Source of the DNA: a virus
Length of the DNA stretch: 21,761 nucleotides
Virus record (IMG/VR): IMGVR_UViG_3300006641_000212
Span: 1 to 21,761 of that record
Strand: one strand, 5' to 3'
Shown here: positions 6,367 to 15,992 of the stretch, piece after piece
Numbering within the stretch: position 1 is the first letter of the stretch
Layout of the letters: the number at the start of each line of letters is the position of its first letter
Position numbers and translations under genes: made by a program
The notes under the pieces: generated by a model
Told to the model about the DNA's origin: nothing
Seen by the model: the letters and a program-made list of their open reading frames with translations, nothing else
The model's database searches: none

Positions 6367-7467
6367 TTAAATTCTCAATGCTATTGCGGATCTTATTTTA
6401 TATTTTGCCATATCGCTATATGGCACTAATGTTTTATTCATTGTTTCAATAATTTGATTATTGGTTAATTTTAAATGTGTATATAATTCATTCCAATCTT
6501 TCACATATTTTTCTTTACCATTTTCATCAACGCCGATGCGTTCTTTGGGTGGTATTGACCAAAATACTTTAAAATTATTACGCAATAACATATCACCATT
6601 ATTAATGATGCTTTTTAATCCTGCTTTATCATTGTCTGGTGCTAATATAACTCCCATAATTGGGTTTAAGAATTTTAATCTTTTTATTTGACCTTCTGTC
6701 ATAGTTGCTCCACCAGTGGCTACGCAACAATCACCTAAATTCACTTTATTAAAAATTGATTCAGTTATTAAAACATAATTACTTTTTGGTACATCGTCAA
6801 ATCCATACAATACGTCTTCTTTAGTAATTTCTAATTTTGAAATAACTTCACCAGCATCGTTTCTGATTTCATTTGGTGGAAACCAGAATTTTTTAGTAGT
6901 AACATTTCTACTTTGCATGTACACTAATTCATCAAACTCAGTATATAACCATAATATATCTGGTCCACGATAATGAATATTTTCTTTTATTATTTGTTCT
7001 TTTGTGTAACCACGTTTGATTAAATAATCATATATTCTTTTAGAGAAAAAATCGTTTGGTTCTAACAATGGTTTAAAACCATTTGGTATTGCTATTTGTT
7101 GACATTCAATCGTGTCGTTATATTGTTTATTTGAATTATCAGTTGTTTCATAAATGTATTCTGAACCATCTAATAATTCTTTAACAGCGTCTTTATAACT
7201 ACATCCACGTAATAATTGAACCAATTTAGTTATATTACATGGTCTTTTGCCTGTTTTTGGATTTGGAGGACCTGCCCATTCATCAGATCTCCAATCGTGT
7301 ACTCCACCATTTAGATTAATGTTTAATAATTTTTTATCATTACCATAAAACGGATTGGCTACAACGAATTCTTGTCCGTTTTTACGTATTTTAAAATCAG
7401 AAAAATTTTTCCTTATCCATTTTTCGATTTTTTCTGGTGGTATTTTTAATAAAACAGAATTTTTCAT
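6367..7467 (-). CDS. TOPRIM-domain DNA primase-like protein
   Basis: A 366-aa protein from ATG 7467 (a TTG two codons upstream is the alternative). DnaG-type primases have a CHC2 zinc domain, a TOPRIM catalytic domain and, if bifunctional, a helicase. Here residues 232-330 show a TOPRIM pattern: VLITESIFNKVNL with the catalytic Glu at 236, CVATGGATMTEGQ, VILAPDNDKAG with the D-x-D pair at 278/280, and a KDWNEL end motif at 323-328. Residues 30-100 look like a CHC2-type domain (NPF..., GGVHDW, ITKLVQLLRGCSYKDAVKELL), but the usual four Cys/His ligands are not in place. No helicase domain is present. No Shine-Dalgarno is visible; a 13-bp inverted repeat stands seven bases before the ATG. It lies between tail chaperone and tape measure, an unusual place for a replication gene. 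It could instead be a TOPRIM protein with another nucleic acid role. Confidence 0.75.
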   Translation of the reverse strand: MKNSVLLKIPPEKIEKWIRKNFSDFKIRKNGQEFVVANPFYGNDKKLLNINLNGGVHDWRSDEWAGPPNPKTGKRPCNITKLVQLLRGCSYKDAVKELLDGSEYIYETTDNSNKQYNDTIECQQIAIPNGFKPLLEPNDFFSKRIYDYLIKRGYTKEQIIKENIHYRGPDILWLYTEFDELVYMQSRNVTTKKFWFPPNEIRNDAGEVISKLEITKEDVLYGFDDVPKSNYVLITESIFNKVNLGDCCVATGGATMTEGQIKRLKFLNPIMGVILAPDNDKAGLKSIINNGDMLLRNNFKVFWSIPPKERIGVDENGKEKYVKDWNELYTHLKLTNNQIIETMNKTLVPYSDMAKYKIRSAIALRI

Positions 7468-7474
7468 GATCAAT

Positions 7475-7544: not shown

Positions 7545-8429
7545 TTATCTTATTTCAAAATAAAATTTCTGACTAACACGAGTTGAGCCATCTGGTAGTG
7601 TTAATTTCACTTGATACCAGTACGTTCCTCTCATGTACAATCCAGTATTTAAATCATATTTTAAAGTCCATGGATTTGCTCTATATTGTCCTTGTCTTAA
7701 ACCGAGATCCATTGATCCATCTTGCACAAGAATATCACAATATTGAGTACCAATGGTAATAGTTGGTTTTAAAAATGGTATAAGTGGATTAACAAGATTT
7801 CTATTATATGAATACAAAGGTAATGGCATTAAACCAACTTCTAAACATCTATGTTCTGGAAAATTGAATCTAGTGTTTAATGGTTCAAATGAAAAATTTA
7901 CACATTGTAAGTTATCATTACAGTACCAAGAATCTGGGTAAACCCAAAATCTATGACAACATTGAACTAGTTGATCTAAAAAACTAGGATCATTACAATC
8001 ACATGGTTCGGTTGTTGGTACTGGTTCATAATTTGGTGGATAACATGGATTATACGGATAAAAATACCATACATCAATATAAACTTCTGGTGATTTAAAT
8101 TCTGATGGTACTAAAAATAATAAATGGTATTTGCCAGGGATTACTGTTGTTGGTGACGTTGGTTCAGTTCCACACAGTCCTGGGTCTTGTTGTATTGATT
8201 CTTGGCAAGCTGGTGCTGGATATAAAGGATCGCCGCAATCAACAAATGGTATTGATGCAACTAAATTAGCTGGTGATACACTACATTGATAAATTTCTAC
8301 TCTTTGAATATAAAATGGATCGTCTAATTGCCCATTGTTATAAAAGTCTACATTTAAATCTATTAATTGATTATTTCTACCACTAATTCTTGGTAAAGCA
8401 TTATTCAATAAGACTGGATCACAAGACAT
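7545..8429 (-). CDS. Cys-rich probable virion protein, 294 aa
   Basis: The protein (MSCDPVLLNNALPRIS...) has 14 Cys, including CDC and CC pairs, most of them between residues 45 and 190 in a Pro/Tyr-rich region (for example YFYPYNPCYPPNYEPVPTTE). The N-terminal ~120 and C-terminal ~90 residues are beta-rich. The end LYMRGTYWYQVKLTLPDGSTRVSQKFYFEIR resembles the last strands of an Ig-like or fibronectin-like fold. No signal peptide is seen. I do not recognise the family. Its place between tail chaperone and tape measure suggests a tail component, perhaps a surface-exposed decoration or fibre-like part. Disulphides would form only after lysis, unless the Cys bind metal. Confidence 0.7.
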   Translation of the reverse strand: MSCDPVLLNNALPRISGRNNQLIDLNVDFYNNGQLDDPFYIQRVEIYQCSVSPANLVASIPFVDCGDPLYPAPACQESIQQDPGLCGTEPTSPTTVIPGKYHLLFLVPSEFKSPEVYIDVWYFYPYNPCYPPNYEPVPTTEPCDCNDPSFLDQLVQCCHRFWVYPDSWYCNDNLQCVNFSFEPLNTRFNFPEHRCLEVGLMPLPLYSYNRNLVNPLIPFLKPTITIGTQYCDILVQDGSMDLGLRQGQYRANPWTLKYDLNTGLYMRGTYWYQVKLTLPDGSTRVSQKFYFEIR

Positions 8430-8487: not shown

Positions 8488-8685
8488 TTAAAGGCTATGT
8501 TGTCCTTTAGATTTATCTTCCTCGTCTTCGAATTGTTTCTTTAATCGATTTATCCACCATTGTCTATCTTCAGAATTTATATTTTCTTGTTCAAATATAG
8601 ACAATTTACCATGATATTTTAAAATGAATTGTTCTTCTAACAAATTATAATATCTATTATCTAATTCTTCATCACTTTGTCGAGC
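8488..8685 (-). CDS. +1-frame extension of the gp26-type chaperone (65 residues)
   Basis: A 65-codon frame with no ATG or GTG, ending in TAA at 8488-8490. It is open back through the end of the upstream gene to a TAA 11 codons before the proposed shift, and lies in the +1 frame relative to it. The product reads ARQSDEELDNRYYNLLEEQF and later EDRQWWINRLKKQFEDEEDK: acidic, helical and protein-like, so not random AT-rich sequence. In the upstream frame the bases before the tandem stop TGA TGA are TTC TTT CGC TCG ACA AAG. If the Phe tRNA slips from TTT (8689-8687) to TTC, skipping one base, translation continues as FF-ARQSDEE and yields a 400-aa fusion. UUU-CGN is the type of +1 site used by influenza PA-X. 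Tail assembly chaperones (lambda G/GT) are commonly made in two frameshifted forms. An independent gene starting at TTG is possible but has no well-placed Shine-Dalgarno. Confidence 0.6.
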   Translation of the reverse strand, partial: ARQSDEELDNRYYNLLEEQFILKYHGKLSIFEQENINSEDRQWWINRLKKQFEDEEDKSKGQHSL

Positions 8686-9691
8686 GAAAGAATCCGTCAG
8701 TAACGGGTAACTCCATAGTTACTTCGTTCTGACACTCCTTACAAATAATAGTAACTGTTGAATCTATGCCCGGAGTATTTTCTCGCAAGAACTCTCTAAT
8801 TGCGGCATTATCCTTAGAATGTAATTTAGATACAATTGATTGAATAACAATAGGATTAGAAACACCATTAACCGATGTTATCGTTTTTTCCAAAGTTCCA
8901 TCTAATATTGCTTCTGATTGATCAGATTGATCTTGTCTATTAATTCTTCCTGGCACTTTGCGTTTATTTGTAGTTTTAACACTATTATTTAAATTGCGAT
9001 TAAATTTTTGACGTGATAAAATATCTGAAATATCACCAGATCTCAAAAATCGAACACTCACCCAAACTTCTCTTCTTGATATTTCAGACAAATGTGGTAA
9101 AACAACTTTAAATGGTTCTGGTCCAAGTTTAGTATTAGCTGGTATAACTGTTGAATATAATTCATTCATATCATAAACATGTGTATTTTGTGCACCACAA
9201 TGTGGACATGTCAACACAAACTTATACTCATTACCATATGTTATACCTCTTATATAATATAACAAAAACGTTCTATCACCAATTAACAGTTCAGACGGGT
9301 CCATATCACCTGGAAATTGACAACATTTTCTAAACATTGCATCCAATGCTTGACCAGATGATGTAAATCTTTTATTAGCAAAGATTTTTTCTACACTTTG
9401 GGTCATAGCTCGAACATTTACAACACCATTAGACCAACCTTTATAATATAAACCACCACTTGGTAAAATACAATCTTCCCAAGGTATTAATAAATCATGC
9501 GGAGCTTCAGCTAAAGCATTAATAAAATCCACATCGGACATATCTTTACCGATAGTGGCTATTTCACTTGATAATTGTCCGTGTCCTGGTAATATTATAT
9601 TTTCATCAACGTCTGGTGTGGTAGAATCCAATTGATCTTCATTTAAAGATTTACCTGTTACGATATCAATTTCAGTTTCTTTATTGTTCAT
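8672..9691 (-). CDS. T4 gp26-type baseplate hub / tail assembly chaperone, short form
   Basis: A 339-aa protein. The T4 baseplate gp26 family has a start motif like LPSGGLYY, a conserved 'IGDRxFLLxYIRxxTYGNEYxF' block and a Cys pair. All are here: LPSGGLYYKG at 76-85, LLIGDRTFLLYYIRGITYGN at 135-154, CPHC at 162-165 and a second pair CKEC at 317-320, together able to form a zinc ribbon. Residues 1-60 are an acidic, probably disordered tail and residues 228-262 are a Lys/Asn/Gln-rich linker. It lies after the tail tube genes and upstream of the tape measure, the normal position of the G/GT-type chaperone. A tandem TGA TGA ends it, and a +1 frame continues 65 codons further. No convincing Shine-Dalgarno is seen before ATG 9691. 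Confidence 0.75.
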   Translation of the reverse strand: MNNKETEIDIVTGKSLNEDQLDSTTPDVDENIILPGHGQLSSEIATIGKDMSDVDFINALAEAPHDLLIPWEDCILPSGGLYYKGWSNGVVNVRAMTQSVEKIFANKRFTSSGQALDAMFRKCCQFPGDMDPSELLIGDRTFLLYYIRGITYGNEYKFVLTCPHCGAQNTHVYDMNELYSTVIPANTKLGPEPFKVVLPHLSEISRREVWVSVRFLRSGDISDILSRQKFNRNLNNSVKTTNKRKVPGRINRQDQSDQSEAILDGTLEKTITSVNGVSNPIVIQSIVSKLHSKDNAAIREFLRENTPGIDSTVTIICKECQNEVTMELPVTDGFFRSTK

Positions 9692-9740: not shown

Positions 9741-10346
9741 TTACTCTTTAGAACCGCTAATTTCAACTGAAAAATGGTCATACATTATCGTTAGTTCAAC
9801 TGTTTTAATACCAGATTCGACATATGTTAATTCACTTTCTCTTATAACCATCGGCCACGACCCATATAAATTATATTTTACAGTTCCATCTGGTTTCTGC
9901 TTAAATTGGTCTGATGTAGTTAAATCTCTATCAATTAGATATTTAGATATTGTTGTTTGTTTTTTATATCTATTGGCAGCTTTTAGTCCTCTAGTTTCAT
10001 TCCAAATAGAATTCGACCATTGAACTAATAAATTAGAAAGTTTATATGTATCATAAAATGATATTTTTATCGGTTCAAATGTTGGTTTACCAGCGAATTT
10101 GTATTCAATCGAACCGCCTTTAGCTTTTATTTGCTCATAATTAATAGCTGGTAATTGAGCAGTTTTCAATAATATATCTTGAATACCAGTATCATAACCA
10201 GTAGTAACACTATAAGTTTTATTATTATTTTCAAATGTTTTTACAAATAAACTTGGTATTTCCCATGTAAATGTAGAATAAAATCTAGATTCATGATTTA
10301 CCGCACTACCATTACCACCAACATTATTTATCCTAAAACCTGGCAT
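9741..10346 (-). CDS. Tail tube-like paralogue 3 (gp19 family)
   Basis: A 201-aa protein from ATG 10346 (MPGFRINNVGG). This start is preferred over an upstream in-frame start because all three paralogues begin MPGF. It shares with its two neighbours the C-terminal pattern LYGSWPMVIRESELTYVESG followed by TVELTIMYDHF, i.e. (G/R)(C/S)WP, L-x-Y, then E-x-x-x-x-YD. T4 gp19 forms the tube, while gp48 and gp54 are tube-like initiators that cap the baseplate. Being third in the row and the most divergent, this copy may be such an initiator. Its ATG lies one base after the upstream gene's TAA, suggesting coupling, with a purine-rich GATGGGG about nine bases upstream. Confidence 0.72.
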   Translation of the reverse strand: MPGFRINNVGGNGSAVNHESRFYSTFTWEIPSLFVKTFENNNKTYSVTTGYDTGIQDILLKTAQLPAINYEQIKAKGGSIEYKFAGKPTFEPIKISFYDTYKLSNLLVQWSNSIWNETRGLKAANRYKKQTTISKYLIDRDLTTSDQFKQKPDGTVKYNLYGSWPMVIRESELTYVESGIKTVELTIMYDHFSVEISGSKE

Positions 10347-10347
10347 T

Positions 10348-10989
10348 TTAATTCGGCCCCATCTTATCTGATGGTGTAAGTTCTGATGAATAACCTTCCA
10401 TGAATTTATCATATACTAAAGATAATTCTATTTTAGAAATAGATCCATTTTCATAGTCTAATATAGTTGGAGTTATAGTTTCAGGCCAACATCTATATAA
10501 TGTATATTTCCATGCCAAAGTGCCAATACCAGTTAACATTGATATACTTGCAGTTGTTCTTCTTGATTCAGGATACGTTGTCCTTGAAGATCTTCTATTC
10601 CACGCTCCTTGTGTCCACCAAAATACAATATCTGATGCAGTTGCATTAATTTCATTAGTAGGATCTGAACCACTTAAAATTTCATAAAATACAACATTTA
10701 CTGGTGAATATTTAGCTCTAAGTGGAACATTGATGTAGTCAGCACCATTGTAAACTACTTCTTTTTCTATTTCAATTATTGGCCGTGTTATAGATTGACA
10801 AGATAATGTTACAATTTTATCAGAAAATACTGTTTTATTTATTCTAGCGTTGTTTATTGGTATAGATAGAGACAGCTCGAACCGATTAGTTCGAGCTGTT
10901 TCTATTGTGTTGGATATAATATTTTTTGAATCATTACCAAATTTTATATTACATCCATTTAATATTCTGCCAATATTAAATCCAGGCAT
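10348..10989 (-). CDS. Tail tube-like paralogue 2 (gp19 family)
   Basis: A 213-aa protein (MPGFNIGRILNGCNIKF...). It aligns with the first paralogue at the N-terminus (MPGFN; IETARTNRFELSL against IETRRQNRWVMEF) and at the C-terminus (LYRCWPETITPTILDYENGS, then IELSLVYDKF). It is slightly longer than paralogue 1, with a basic SRTTYPESRRTT loop in the middle. Four bases separate it from paralogue 1 and no Shine-Dalgarno is visible, so it probably depends on coupling and is made at lower level than the main tube. It could be a gp48/gp54-like tube initiator. The coding sequence for ETARTNRFELS contains an 11-bp perfect hairpin (10872-10899). Confidence 0.75.
   Translation of the reverse strand: MPGFNIGRILNGCNIKFGNDSKNIISNTIETARTNRFELSLSIPINNARINKTVFSDKIVTLSCQSITRPIIEIEKEVVYNGADYINVPLRAKYSPVNVVFYEILSGSDPTNEINATASDIVFWWTQGAWNRRSSRTTYPESRRTTASISMLTGIGTLAWKYTLYRCWPETITPTILDYENGSISKIELSLVYDKFMEGYSSELTPSDKMGPN
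10872..10899 (-). repeat. Perfect 11-bp hairpin inside tube paralogue 2
   Basis: Arms ACAGCTCGAAC (10872-10882) and GTTCGAGCTGT (10889-10899) are exact reverse complements with a 6-nt loop. They extend by about three more pairs if one G-U wobble is allowed. The hairpin is G/C-rich for this genome and lies about 90-115 nt into the gene. It is not followed by a U-run. It could slow ribosomes or polymerase and so lower paralogue 2 and 3 relative to the main tube protein. Confidence 0.6.
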
Positions 10990-10993
10990 TTTA

Positions 10994-11593
10994 TTAATTT
11001 ACAGGGCAACTTGGTTGAATTGGTTGTGGTGCAACTGGAGTTGGACAAGAACCATCTTCAAATTGACGAACTGCACGATCATAACGCATAATGCATTCAA
11101 TCATACAAATTTTACCACTTGAATAATTTAATTCGCCCCAATCACATTCTTTTGGCCAGCAACCAAACATTGACCAAACTTCATTACGTTGACCAGTTCC
11201 ATCCAACATTCTCAATGACGCATTTCGCTTATAAAAGCGTGGATGTGCCATGTTCATGTTTCCAATGTTTATTACAGTTTCAATCCAGTGATAAACACCT
11301 TTACTTATGTCTGGATCTTGTTCAGCGTCATACCATCTTAGTTTCATGTCAGAAAATTTATGCTTACCGGCAAAGTAAGCAACTTCTTGCATGTGGTGCA
11401 TTTCTTCTTCGTCAAATTGAAATTTAGGTCTACTAGCAGATTCTAGTAACAAAAGTTCAGTTTGAGTGAAAGTACCAGCACCGCGTCCTAAAAATTCCAT
11501 GACCCATCTGTTCTGACGTCTCGTTTCAATGTTGTTGGAAGGGCCAACACCTTGATACGATCCATTGAACGGAGCAACATTAAATCCAGGCAT
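10994..11593 (-). CDS. Major tail tube protein (gp19 family), paralogue 1
   Basis: A 199-aa protein from ATG 11593 (MPGFNVAPFNGSYQG). GGAG 10 bases upstream supports this start over the longer frame. Its length and pattern fit T4 gp19-like tube subunits: an early RRQNRWVMEF strand, a central SDMKLRWYDAEQDPDISKGV with W and D typical of tube proteins, and the CWPKECDWGELNYSSGKICM segment followed by MRYDRAV. The C-terminus is a short Pro-rich tail (CPTPVAPQPIQPSCPVN). Being first of three tandem paralogues and having the best ribosome binding site, it is the best candidate for the main tube subunit. Confidence 0.8.
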   Translation of the reverse strand: MPGFNVAPFNGSYQGVGPSNNIETRRQNRWVMEFLGRGAGTFTQTELLLLESASRPKFQFDEEEMHHMQEVAYFAGKHKFSDMKLRWYDAEQDPDISKGVYHWIETVINIGNMNMAHPRFYKRNASLRMLDGTGQRNEVWSMFGCWPKECDWGELNYSSGKICMIECIMRYDRAVRQFEDGSCPTPVAPQPIQPSCPVN

Positions 11594-11640
11594 TTTATAA
11601 ATCTCCGTGTTGAAACATTTACTTATATTTGTAAAAAATA

Positions 11641-12123
11641 TCAACCGTCTACATGATTTGAAAAACGATTGACTCTACCATCATCTTTGGTTACAAAATA
11701 ATATTTGTCAAAATCATCATTACGTTTGATGGTTTTAATGCATTTAAAACTCAAAGATTTTAATAATAATTGAGCAGATAAGAAAATGTCATTAACGTAA
11801 GCAGACATAACATATGGTTGTTCTTTAATAATAATTTTTGAAATCATCGTAGTAGCCACTTTATTTCTACGAGCTTTTGGCGTTACCCAACAATGGGTAA
11901 AATTAACATAATAATTATCTTGTTTATTATATAATAAGTAACCAATCGGAGAACCATAAATATCATAAGAAATAACGCCAGCATTATTACCAATTTGATA
12001 TATAAAATATGGTATTATATCTACAAGAGGCACACTCAATTCTCTAGAACAACATTGAAATAAAGATTCAAATTCTTGTCTATTTTTTAATTCTAAATCT
12101 TCTACATGAACAAAAAATTCCAT
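11641..12123 (-). CDS. GNAT-family N-acetyltransferase
   Basis: A 160-aa protein from ATG 12123 (MEFFVHVEDLELKNRQ), chosen because CGGAGGT lies five bases before it. GNAT enzymes move an acetyl group from acetyl-CoA to an amine. The core is visible as VISYDIYGSPIGYLLYNKQD (beta2-beta3), then VNFTHCWVTPKARRNKVATT (beta4 and the acetyl-CoA motif A, normally R/Q-x-x-G-x-G/A), then an MSAYVND strand and an FLSAQLLLKSLSFKCIKT segment (typical of the 'N..a..lY...GF' motif B). The first Gly of motif A is Lys-Val here, so activity is not certain. It sits alone between sheath and tube genes. The substrate is unknown; a virion protein is an inference from context only. Confidence 0.72.
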   Translation of the reverse strand: MEFFVHVEDLELKNRQEFESLFQCCSRELSVPLVDIIPYFIYQIGNNAGVISYDIYGSPIGYLLYNKQDNYYVNFTHCWVTPKARRNKVATTMISKIIIKEQPYVMSAYVNDIFLSAQLLLKSLSFKCIKTIKRNDDFDKYYFVTKDDGRVNRFSNHVDG

Positions 12124-13139: not shown

Positions 13140-15992
13140 TTAACCGTTGAAAACACCAACTGCTGATAATACTTCTTCAGAAGTCAATGAAGCATTTTGA
13201 CGTGTTACACCAATATTCAAAACAACAAATTCAGCGGCACGATTTGGTACTAGAATCACTGAAACCCAAAGTTCACCCCGATCAATGCGTTCAGGAGTGT
13301 TACTATTTTCATCAATAATAGTAACATAACGCACTAGACCACGACGAGATTGGATATCTGCCAAAAATGGGTCTATTGATGCTTTGATTTGTGACCATAA
13401 AATTCGATCATTTGGTTCAAAAACAAACCCTCTTAAGATTGAAATTAAACCACGACGAACATTATTAACCAACAGTCTAACATCCATACGACTCAGTGGT
13501 GAATCACCACGTTGCAACGTTCTATTGCCCCAAACTGTTAAACCCTCACGAGTAAAATTAATGATCGGATTTACAGAATTACCACTACCATACATCAAAT
13601 CTTGTTCACCTTTAGTTGGTGAATATTCAACAGCAATAGGTGACAAAATTCGCCCTCGGCGTAAACCGGCTGGAGCACTCCATGGATCACCTTCACGTGA
13701 ACTTCTACTGAATATACCAGCCATATGTCCACTTGGTGGAATCCAAATATTCTTACCACTAAATTGATCAAATACTAACAGCCATCCACTGTAAAGACCT
13801 GCATAACTGGTATTAATAGCTTGTTGCAAATCACTTATTAACATACCATTATGCCAATCAACAGTCTGCTGCGGTCGCAAACCAAACGGTGGATCTACCA
13901 AATAAACAGCATCACCACGGCTTGAAATTATTTGAATAGCAGTACCGATAACAGCACCAGAACTAAACCCAGGAGTTGCTAAAATATCAATTTCAAAAGT
14001 TTCTGGATTTTCAAAAGCATACAAACCAGTAGCCAATGATGGATTACCTATAACAGCAACGTCCAAATAATTTGAATAACTAGGATCATTTGGAATACCA
14101 TTATTAGCACCAGAATAAGATCTTGAAGCAAATTGAGCAGGCAATCTTGTTTCGTATGTTATCAAATTAGGATCATTATTCAAAAATCCAGGTCGTTCTT
14201 CCCAATGAACGTAAAGATTGCCTCTTAATCCACCAAATACTGATCCAGGATTTAAAACATTGGCAATATAACGACTTGCTGTTTTATCAAATGAAATATC
14301 TTCAACTCTATCAAGTATTTCACCACCACTACCATAAATAAGCAATTTATATCTACCAGCTATTTCACCAACACCTTCGGTGAATAGAGACAGTTCAAAT
14401 TTCAAACCATTAGACCACGTTCCAGAACTTGGTGCTACAAACCAACCGACAATGTTTTGAAAATAATTAGAATCCAAAATGCACTGTTGGCTAAGCGGAT
14501 CTAAATCACAACTCTTAGGAACTGCTGGATCATTTGATCCTGGATCAGGTAATGATAGTCTGTTATCAAAAAATCCACGATAACTTCTTCTGTATGGACT
14601 TAAAATATCAACTTCATCTGCAAATTTTAGAACTTTTAAATTCGAAAAACTAGCTTCAAGTTCAATAGTGTCTAATTGATGATCTCCAGAAACAATTATC
14701 ATTAAATGAGTTGTACCGCCAGGTACAGTTAACTCAATTGCTTCATAATATTGTTCATTGTTTACTGTACCAACACCATTTATAATACCAACAATTGAAG
14801 TTGTATTGAGAACGCCAACTGGTAAAGATACTGATATCTGTTGAGTTGAAGATTCACCAATAACACTTAAAATAACTCTATTATTCGATGCTGTAAATGT
14901 GTATGGTCCTGCATTTGTTCCAAGCAAATAACCACGTGGAACATCCCAAGCATACAAAGCAGAATTTAATTCTGCTGCCCAAGCTTCCGTAGCTGTGATT
15001 TGAATTCTGTCGCCTTCTGTTACAGTTTGAACTTGAGCAATTGTAGATCCATCATCTTGTAACGATTCAACAAATAAATAATCTTCACTTGTTAACAATG
15101 CATTAGCTGCAGCAACAAAATCAGCCACTGTCGTATAAGTAGCTGTTGGCATTTGATAAACATTTGGTGTTACTTCACCTTCTACAGATATTGAAAATGA
15201 GCGATTGTCAGGTTGAACATTCCATGTAAATGTGTCGCCAATGTCCAATTCACCAGATGTAACTTCAACTCTTACACTAAACCCAGAATTTGTTACAGGA
15301 ATCCAAAATGAAATATTAGTACCACCTTGATCAACCAAAACATCTTCAACTATAACTTCACCATCACTATTTCTAATGATCTGAAAATCACAACCACCCA
15401 ATGCTGAACTATCAGATAAATTAGGTTCACTATTAATTATAAGTGAATATGAATCATCTGTGTCACCGGTGTAATTACCAAGAAATGACAAAGTTGCAAC
15501 AGTTCCACCATCTGTTGAACTCAAAACTGAATCAGTATAAACAATATTGTAAATACTAGATGCGTGAAATGCTGCTGATGGTGGATTGCCATCAATACCA
15601 TCACCAATTTTGCGAAACGGTATTTTACCAACATCTATACCAGAAAAAACTGGAAGACGACCCCAACCATTAACTCTAGCACCGCTAGTGTCTATACAAA
15701 TTTCATTTAATTCTGCTGGTAATCCATCGCTGCATTCAACAGCTATACGCATTACAAAAGCTTGATTACCTTCTTCTAAGTAAGCTAAAACAGAATAACC
15801 AAGATAACTATCTGGGAATGGCTCACCAAACACATCAATAAATTGCTGTGCGTTAGTTATTAATACTGGAGTATTAATTGGGCCTTTCTTAGCCGTTCCA
15901 ATAAACGCTGGTCGAATCGGACCAAGTTGATTTGGTAATTGGTTAATCTCAACAACACGTGAATAAACACCAGGGCTCAAATATGTTGGCAT
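13140..15992 (-). CDS. Tail sheath protein (enlarged)
   Basis: A 950-aa protein. The sheath surrounds the tube and contracts to drive it into the cell. The N-terminus MPTYLSPGVYSRVVEINQLP with FIGTAKKGPINTPVLITNAQ and FIDVFGEP is the typical sheath start that gives the linker arm and first core strands. The last ~150 residues, with INFTREGLTVWGNRTLQR, DVRLLVNNVRRGLISILRGF, FEPNDRILWSQIKASIDPFL and WVSVILVPNRAAEFVVLNIG, are the conserved C-terminal core. T4 gp18 has 659 residues, so about 300 extra residues sit in the middle (roughly 110-620) as beta-rich, Ser/Thr/Gly-rich domains probably on the outside of the tail. AAGGT nine bases upstream supports ATG 15992. A strong terminator follows. 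Confidence 0.93.
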   Translation of the reverse strand: MPTYLSPGVYSRVVEINQLPNQLGPIRPAFIGTAKKGPINTPVLITNAQQFIDVFGEPFPDSYLGYSVLAYLEEGNQAFVMRIAVECSDGLPAELNEICIDTSGARVNGWGRLPVFSGIDVGKIPFRKIGDGIDGNPPSAAFHASSIYNIVYTDSVLSSTDGGTVATLSFLGNYTGDTDDSYSLIINSEPNLSDSSALGGCDFQIIRNSDGEVIVEDVLVDQGGTNISFWIPVTNSGFSVRVEVTSGELDIGDTFTWNVQPDNRSFSISVEGEVTPNVYQMPTATYTTVADFVAAANALLTSEDYLFVESLQDDGSTIAQVQTVTEGDRIQITATEAWAAELNSALYAWDVPRGYLLGTNAGPYTFTASNNRVILSVIGESSTQQISVSLPVGVLNTTSIVGIINGVGTVNNEQYYEAIELTVPGGTTHLMIIVSGDHQLDTIELEASFSNLKVLKFADEVDILSPYRRSYRGFFDNRLSLPDPGSNDPAVPKSCDLDPLSQQCILDSNYFQNIVGWFVAPSSGTWSNGLKFELSLFTEGVGEIAGRYKLLIYGSGGEILDRVEDISFDKTASRYIANVLNPGSVFGGLRGNLYVHWEERPGFLNNDPNLITYETRLPAQFASRSYSGANNGIPNDPSYSNYLDVAVIGNPSLATGLYAFENPETFEIDILATPGFSSGAVIGTAIQIISSRGDAVYLVDPPFGLRPQQTVDWHNGMLISDLQQAINTSYAGLYSGWLLVFDQFSGKNIWIPPSGHMAGIFSRSSREGDPWSAPAGLRRGRILSPIAVEYSPTKGEQDLMYGSGNSVNPIINFTREGLTVWGNRTLQRGDSPLSRMDVRLLVNNVRRGLISILRGFVFEPNDRILWSQIKASIDPFLADIQSRRGLVRYVTIIDENSNTPERIDRGELWVSVILVPNRAAEFVVLNIGVTRQNASLTSEEVLSAVGVFNG

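Follow-up and report, generated by a model that had tools for sequence, protein, structure and literature searches.

A probable tail chaperone gene of the T4 gp26/gp51 family with a predicted +1 frameshift, and the direction of shifting within that family

The window analysed here, a 21.8-kb virus record that is probably a metagenome-derived fragment, carries a myovirus tail module lying mostly on the minus strand and comprising a sheath gene, three tube paralogues, a gp26-type gene and a probable tape measure gene. The gp26-type gene ends GGA TTC TTT CGC TCG ACA AAG TGA TGA, and an open +1 frame overlaps this end and runs on past the stops. The arrangement raises the question of whether ribosomes cross from one frame to the other and, if so, what the joined protein might be. 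A sequence-only reading had described the gene end, the tandem stops, a 65-codon +1 frame free of ATG and GTG and a 400-aa fusion; coordinates and frames proved to be as described (Table 1). The comparisons below indicate that a pair of tail assembly chaperones (TAC-N and TAC-NC, of the G/GT type) belonging to the T4 gp26/gp51 family is very probably made from this locus by +1 frameshifting.

Table 1. Features of the gp26-family locus and its surroundings in the window.
Feature	Position	Strand	Evidence
gp26-family gene (TAC-N, predicted short form)	9691-8672	minus	339 aa; PF12322 T4_baseplate E=6.6e-11, phrog_150 E=1.1e-15
Predicted +1 slip site UUC_UUU_CGC	8692-8684	minus	UUU_CGU at same place in L220, L221, L003
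+1-frame extension (TAC-C / gp51 C-terminal-like)	8685-8488	minus	extension HMMs; 52-53% identity in L220/L221
Tandem zero-frame stops TGA TGA	8674-8669	minus	end of short form; read from sequence
Tail tube paralogue, directly upstream of gp26-family gene	9741-10412	minus	phrog_4542 E=6.9e-14; PF06841 gp19 E=2.6e-5 (below its cut-off)
Probable tape measure protein	5851-2528	minus	1107 aa, hydrophobic centre; size, hydropathy, position

The gp26-family protein has a C-terminal Cys4 motif and the terminus ..DGFFRSTK, its frame closing at TGA 8674-8672, followed directly by TGA 8671-8669. The codons at the predicted slip are TTC (8692-8690), TTT (8689-8687) and CGC (8686-8684). Past a slip on UUU, 65 codons are open in the +1 frame (8685-8491), up to a TAA at 8490-8488, which gives a predicted fusion of 335+65 = 400 aa; the predicted transframe peptide is ECQNEVTMELPVTDGFFAR, with the junction ...DGFFAR. 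The only start-like codons of this frame are two internal TTG. A +1 ORF of such length arises by chance with P = 0.0019 (dinucleotide shuffling), and one in either shifted frame with P = 0.0032. The window has no canonical -1 heptamer (X_XXY_YYZ) at this place, and the -1 frame closes 11 nt past the stop. The site falls in the UUU_C class, defined by a P-site UUU followed by C and a restricted A-site codon; CGC is the eighth rarest sense codon of the window (2.4 per 1000 codons). UUU_CGC occurs once more in frame, at codon 126 of the sheath gene (13140-15992, unusually long at 950 aa), and the hexamer alone is therefore not decisive.

A blind test of the extension used HMMs built from the extension peptides of other phages only, run against the 313 ORFs of the window. 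The HMM from a diverse set ranked the +1 ORF 1/313 (E 3.8e-8); the ORF also came first with HMMs from -1-type extensions alone (E 4.5e-6) and from the SP-15, LIS04 and GXN1 extensions (E 1.9e-5). It was not found by an HMM from immuto-type extensions alone, and a PHROG search with the window extension gave no meaningful match. These results argue that the +1 ORF is no chance frame, homology being far stronger evidence than ORF length.

A scan that used the conserved region of the window protein as query returned three contigs (L219-L221) from close relatives, two of which reach the gene end. The gp26 proteins of these two, L220 and L221, are about 47% identical to that of the window, and their genes end GGC TTT TTT CGT CAG GCA AAG CCC TGA and ACT TTT TTT CGT CCA GCA GAG CGG TGA, respectively. 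The extensions are 53% (L220) and 52% (L221) identical to that of the window, and where the three differ, third codon positions of the +1 frame are over-represented (chi-square p 0.022, 0.013, 0.051). Streptococcus phage GXN1 (L003) likewise has UUU_CGU at its slip site. Conservation of TTT-CGN, which the sequence-only reading had named as a check, is found in the nearest relatives and in GXN1; together with the HMM ranking, it supports the +1 slip proposed there for UUU_CGC.

The identity of the protein is best seen by comparison with T4, in which PF12322 is matched by two proteins, gp26 (8.8e-64) and gp51 (3.9e-52). T4 gp26 has the terminus LKEFFELL, with codons TTC TTT GAG and no extension frame. 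T4 gp51 consists of the PF12322 domain plus about 48 residues recognised by the extension HMMs (E down to 3.6e-5); the latter half of gp51 and the -1 ORFs of KVP40, Bellamy and S-RS29 share a match to phrog_634. By these matches, T4 gp26 is the short form, and gp51 is a natural fusion that includes the extension. With two PF12322 genes, T4 has no slip site, whereas the frameshift-type phages searched never have more than one PF12322 gene; duplication in T4 therefore yields what others make by a shift. The window protein has the T4_baseplate N-terminal domain (the PF12322 match is above cutoff, and phrog_150 is a baseplate hub family) and an extension homologous to the C-terminal part of gp51. 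Its AF2 model (pLDDT 81) matches SP-15 gp26 (TMt 0.85). A Foldseek search placed HK97 TAC (2ob9_B) at rank 4, with the highest probability, though this was 0.21, and an E of 1.5, without significance. Genes of the gp26/gp51 type are reportedly treated as T4-like chaperones by Vladimirov, Gautam and Davidson in 2022, with frameshifting in several groups and separate genes in T4.

The proposal that the gp26 family supplies the G/GT-type chaperone of this tail is supported by the PF12322 domain, the gp51-like extension and the gene position. The claim that the gene stands upstream of the tape measure holds with one correction: the gene lies between a tail tube gene, which adjoins it upstream, and the probable tape measure gene downstream, but three genes (8429-5900) separate it from the latter. 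In SP-15, LIS04, immuto and LuckySocke, the chaperone and tape measure regions are directly adjacent. The probable tape measure protein of the window had no family match in Pfam-type or PHROG searches. One of the intervening genes is primase-like, with a Toprim match (6367-7473; phrog_47 E=1.6e-19); L220 carries relatives of both this gene and the one at 7545-8429, in matching order. Upstream, the three tube paralogues stand in tandem (9741-11644), all with phrog_4542 matches; several tube copies are also present in L219-L221, and at least two in LR756511 (L002).

The comparison was extended to the gp26 region of 23 further phages, making 24 loci with the window. An overlapping +1 or -1 extension is present at the gp26 end in all 24, LR756511 additionally having its own ATG. 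The -1 types include RaK2, 121Q, BF, PA5oct, Atu_ph07, KVP40 and cyanophages, with entry at U_UUU_UUC or U_UUU_UUU. The +1 types are the window, LR756508, GXN1, SP-15, LIS04, LuckySocke, immuto, Mel-JY01 and RM378, with entry at UUU_C or YUU_U; the LIS04 site, TTT TTT AGT, is the least clear of these. Common to both types is the entry point, a C-terminal Phe-Phe. An immuto-like scan of IMG/VR gave at least 600 stretches; the best 80 were taken forward, and one of them runs off its contig. The +1 arrangement is present in 79/79 readable loci of these best 80, with the site TTT YTT TGG/TAC/TTC CCT. In a cyanophage-type scan, U_UUU_UUC precedes the -1 frame in 80/80 loci, a few extension frames being cut by contig ends. 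A RaK2-type scan added 25 loci, and those read with a complete gene end all have the -1 form. SP-15-type gp26 used as query against genome contigs found no relatives. Codon choice at the sites is strongly skewed, the counts being inflated by shared ancestry: at immuto-like sites CCT appears in 79/79 (37% of Pro elsewhere in the gene), GAC in 74/75 Asp cases (20% elsewhere) and CTT in 19/19 Leu cases (18% elsewhere), and at cyanophage sites TTC appears in 80/80 (27% elsewhere). These data point to one family pattern, in which a gp51-like extension would be entered at the C-terminal Phe-Phe by a -1 or a +1 shift. The long form is absent from every annotated record examined.

The extension might also be a separate small gp51-like gene, translated without any frameshift after reinitiation or from a start at TTG 8643. 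A start codon does overlap the gp26 stop in some relatives (TAATG in KVP40, 121Q, BF and LR756511), and many cyanophages have an ATG at +3 or +12; in the window it could in principle begin at TTG 8643. However, no start is conserved, which answers another of the checks proposed earlier: at the place of the window TTG, L220 has ATG and L221 has neither ATG nor TTG, nor any start codon near the beginning of its extension, and the whole 78-codon -1 frame of locus L006 is without ATG, GTG or TTG. Moreover, conservation reaches into the part of the extension upstream of the TTG (7-9/14 residues), the slip codons are fixed where the shift alone needs them, and T4 gp51 holds both parts in one polypeptide. 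The lack of a Shine-Dalgarno sequence at the TTG says little, because most window genes have no clear sequence of this kind, as in Bacteroidota viruses, and this argument against separate translation was dropped. On balance, a separate gene is unlikely.

A -2 shift would reach the same frame as a +1 shift and add one Phe, giving ...DGFFFAR instead of ...DGFFAR at the junction. Phage Mu gpGT uses such a shift, as cited in PMC3498833, and -2 re-pairing would be possible in L220 and L221 and at TTT TTT TGG sites. In the window, however, it would place Phe-tRNA on UCU, with a middle-base mismatch, and in the 19 TTT CTT variants it would place Leu-tRNA on UUC. Only +1 gives acceptable pairing in every variant of these groups, which makes the -2 alternative very unlikely. 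Even less credible, to the point of being negligible, is a sequencing or assembly error that split an ordinary fused gene: the probable metagenomic origin of the record would allow for one, yet the window has two in-frame stops, and the same arrangement recurs in the independent contigs L220 and L221 and in about 80 further loci. Transcriptional slippage was rejected for the window, whose T run is just three long, and likewise for the TTT CTT variants. RNA structure was rejected as the stimulator, no such element being found in the window (z = -0.95), nor any excess in the +1 group, nor a consensus structure in the cyanophage group. Across the cyanophage-type loci (L106-L185), the stretch of 55 nt that follows the -1 slip site folds better than shuffled sequences (mean z about -1.8).

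The sequences establish that the gene belongs to the family, that the +1 frame is open, that T4 gp51 is a natural fusion, and that frame, extension and slip codons are all conserved. From this comparative evidence, which points to frameshifting near the 3' end as the source of two C-terminal variants, as in G/GT pairs, we infer that the shift occurs, in a minority of ribosomes and by +1 rather than -2, and that its products act as chaperones. Most ribosomes would halt at the TGA pair and yield the gp26-like TAC-N of 339 aa. The rare CGC in the A site would stall a minority while Phe-tRNA occupies UUU in the P site, and this tRNA would then move one base forward, from UUU (8689-8687) to UUC (8688-8686). 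UUC pairs better than UUU with the Phe anticodon (Firth 2012, PMC3498833), and UUU_C sites were predicted as a +1 frameshift class by Firth and colleagues (PMC3498833). Slipped ribosomes would produce a 400-aa TAC-NC, that is, gp26 with a gp51-type C-terminal domain. A function as tape-measure chaperone is suggested by the lambda G/GT model of tail chaperones (reviewed in PMC5009743), by the gene position, and by PMC3004832, where gp26 and gp51 of T4 are counted among the hub assembly chaperones and gp51 is absent from the particle. If lambda G/GT is a guide, the tape measure (here presumably the probable tape measure protein of Table 1) would be coated by the short and long forms alike, with tail tube subunits being brought in by the C-terminal domain.

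How the two directions of shift are distributed was examined on a tree of the N-terminal domain, built with the slip-site columns left out and containing several long branches. The +1 and -1 labels are clustered on the best tree, yet at least three direction changes are needed. A single +1 clade, which this tree does not show, is not rejected (AU p = 0.126). The row nearest to the window is LR756511, a -1 type, with weak support (86/92). By these sequences, a change of direction within the family would be needed at least once. It is thus rather likely that one homologous chaperone family switched its direction of frameshifting, the same Phe-Phe codons serving by lineage as a -1 heptamer or a +1 P-site slip (UUU_C/YUU_U), with gene duplication instead in T4. 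If so, the +1 form, comprising 79/79 readable loci of the best immuto-like set, the group of the window and several isolated phages, would provide a sizeable natural set of UUU_C/YUU_U sites in bacterial viruses.

For numerous gp26-family genes of uncultured and jumbo phages, these findings would provide a function and a corrected gene model. In T4, they support reading gp26 and gp51 as the short and long chaperones of the tape measure; both proteins have long been listed as hub assembly chaperones with an unclear role. The findings also bring together a natural series of cases that read a single protein motif by a -1 slip, a +1 slip or gene duplication, so that the requirements of each direction could be compared on homologous mRNAs. 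The novelty suggested by the sequence-only reading is narrower than proposed. Papers citing Vladimirov, Gautam and Davidson 2022 (Virology 566:9) report from it that T4-like phages have gp26 and gp51 as tail chaperones and that some groups frameshift, and mention poly-T slippery sites in T4-like TAC-N genes (PMC10885494, PRFect; PMC12846349, the Adele paper); a +1 UUU-CGC chaperone site was proposed in 2020 (PMC7230728). The +1 version in the gp26/gp51 family and the direction change on the same codons are apparently undescribed, while the 2022 paper itself may already mention +1 groups.

A tail chaperone with short and long forms made by frameshifting is a known kind of system. T4 gp26/gp51 shares with the window the PF12322 family, the two forms and the extension domain, and differs in having two genes where the window has a predicted +1 shift at UUU_C. 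Lambda gpG/gpGT and the P2-type systems also lie near the tape measure gene and pair a short form with a long form made by frameshifting at a low level; they use a -1 shift and belong to other protein families, with no sequence similarity seen here. Influenza A PA-X (UCC_UUU_CGU) resembles the window in its P-site slip from UUU to UUC with CGN in the A site (PMC3498833), whereas the window has UUC as E-site codon, bacterial-type ribosomes and an unrelated protein. Also comparable are the HF1-like haloviruses, for which a +1 UUU-CGC chaperone site was proposed in 2020 (PMC7230728): the direction is likewise a predicted +1, UUU_CGC lies near the first stop, and in HF1 the two CDS stand between tail tube and tape measure. 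The HF1 chaperone gene (L218:25257-26040) ends TTT CGC AGA TAG, with a +1 extension. Its hosts are archaeal, and its 156-aa product (phrog_14268/12163) has no PF12322 match and belongs to another chaperone family; therefore, one slip site serves two chaperone families without detectable relation.
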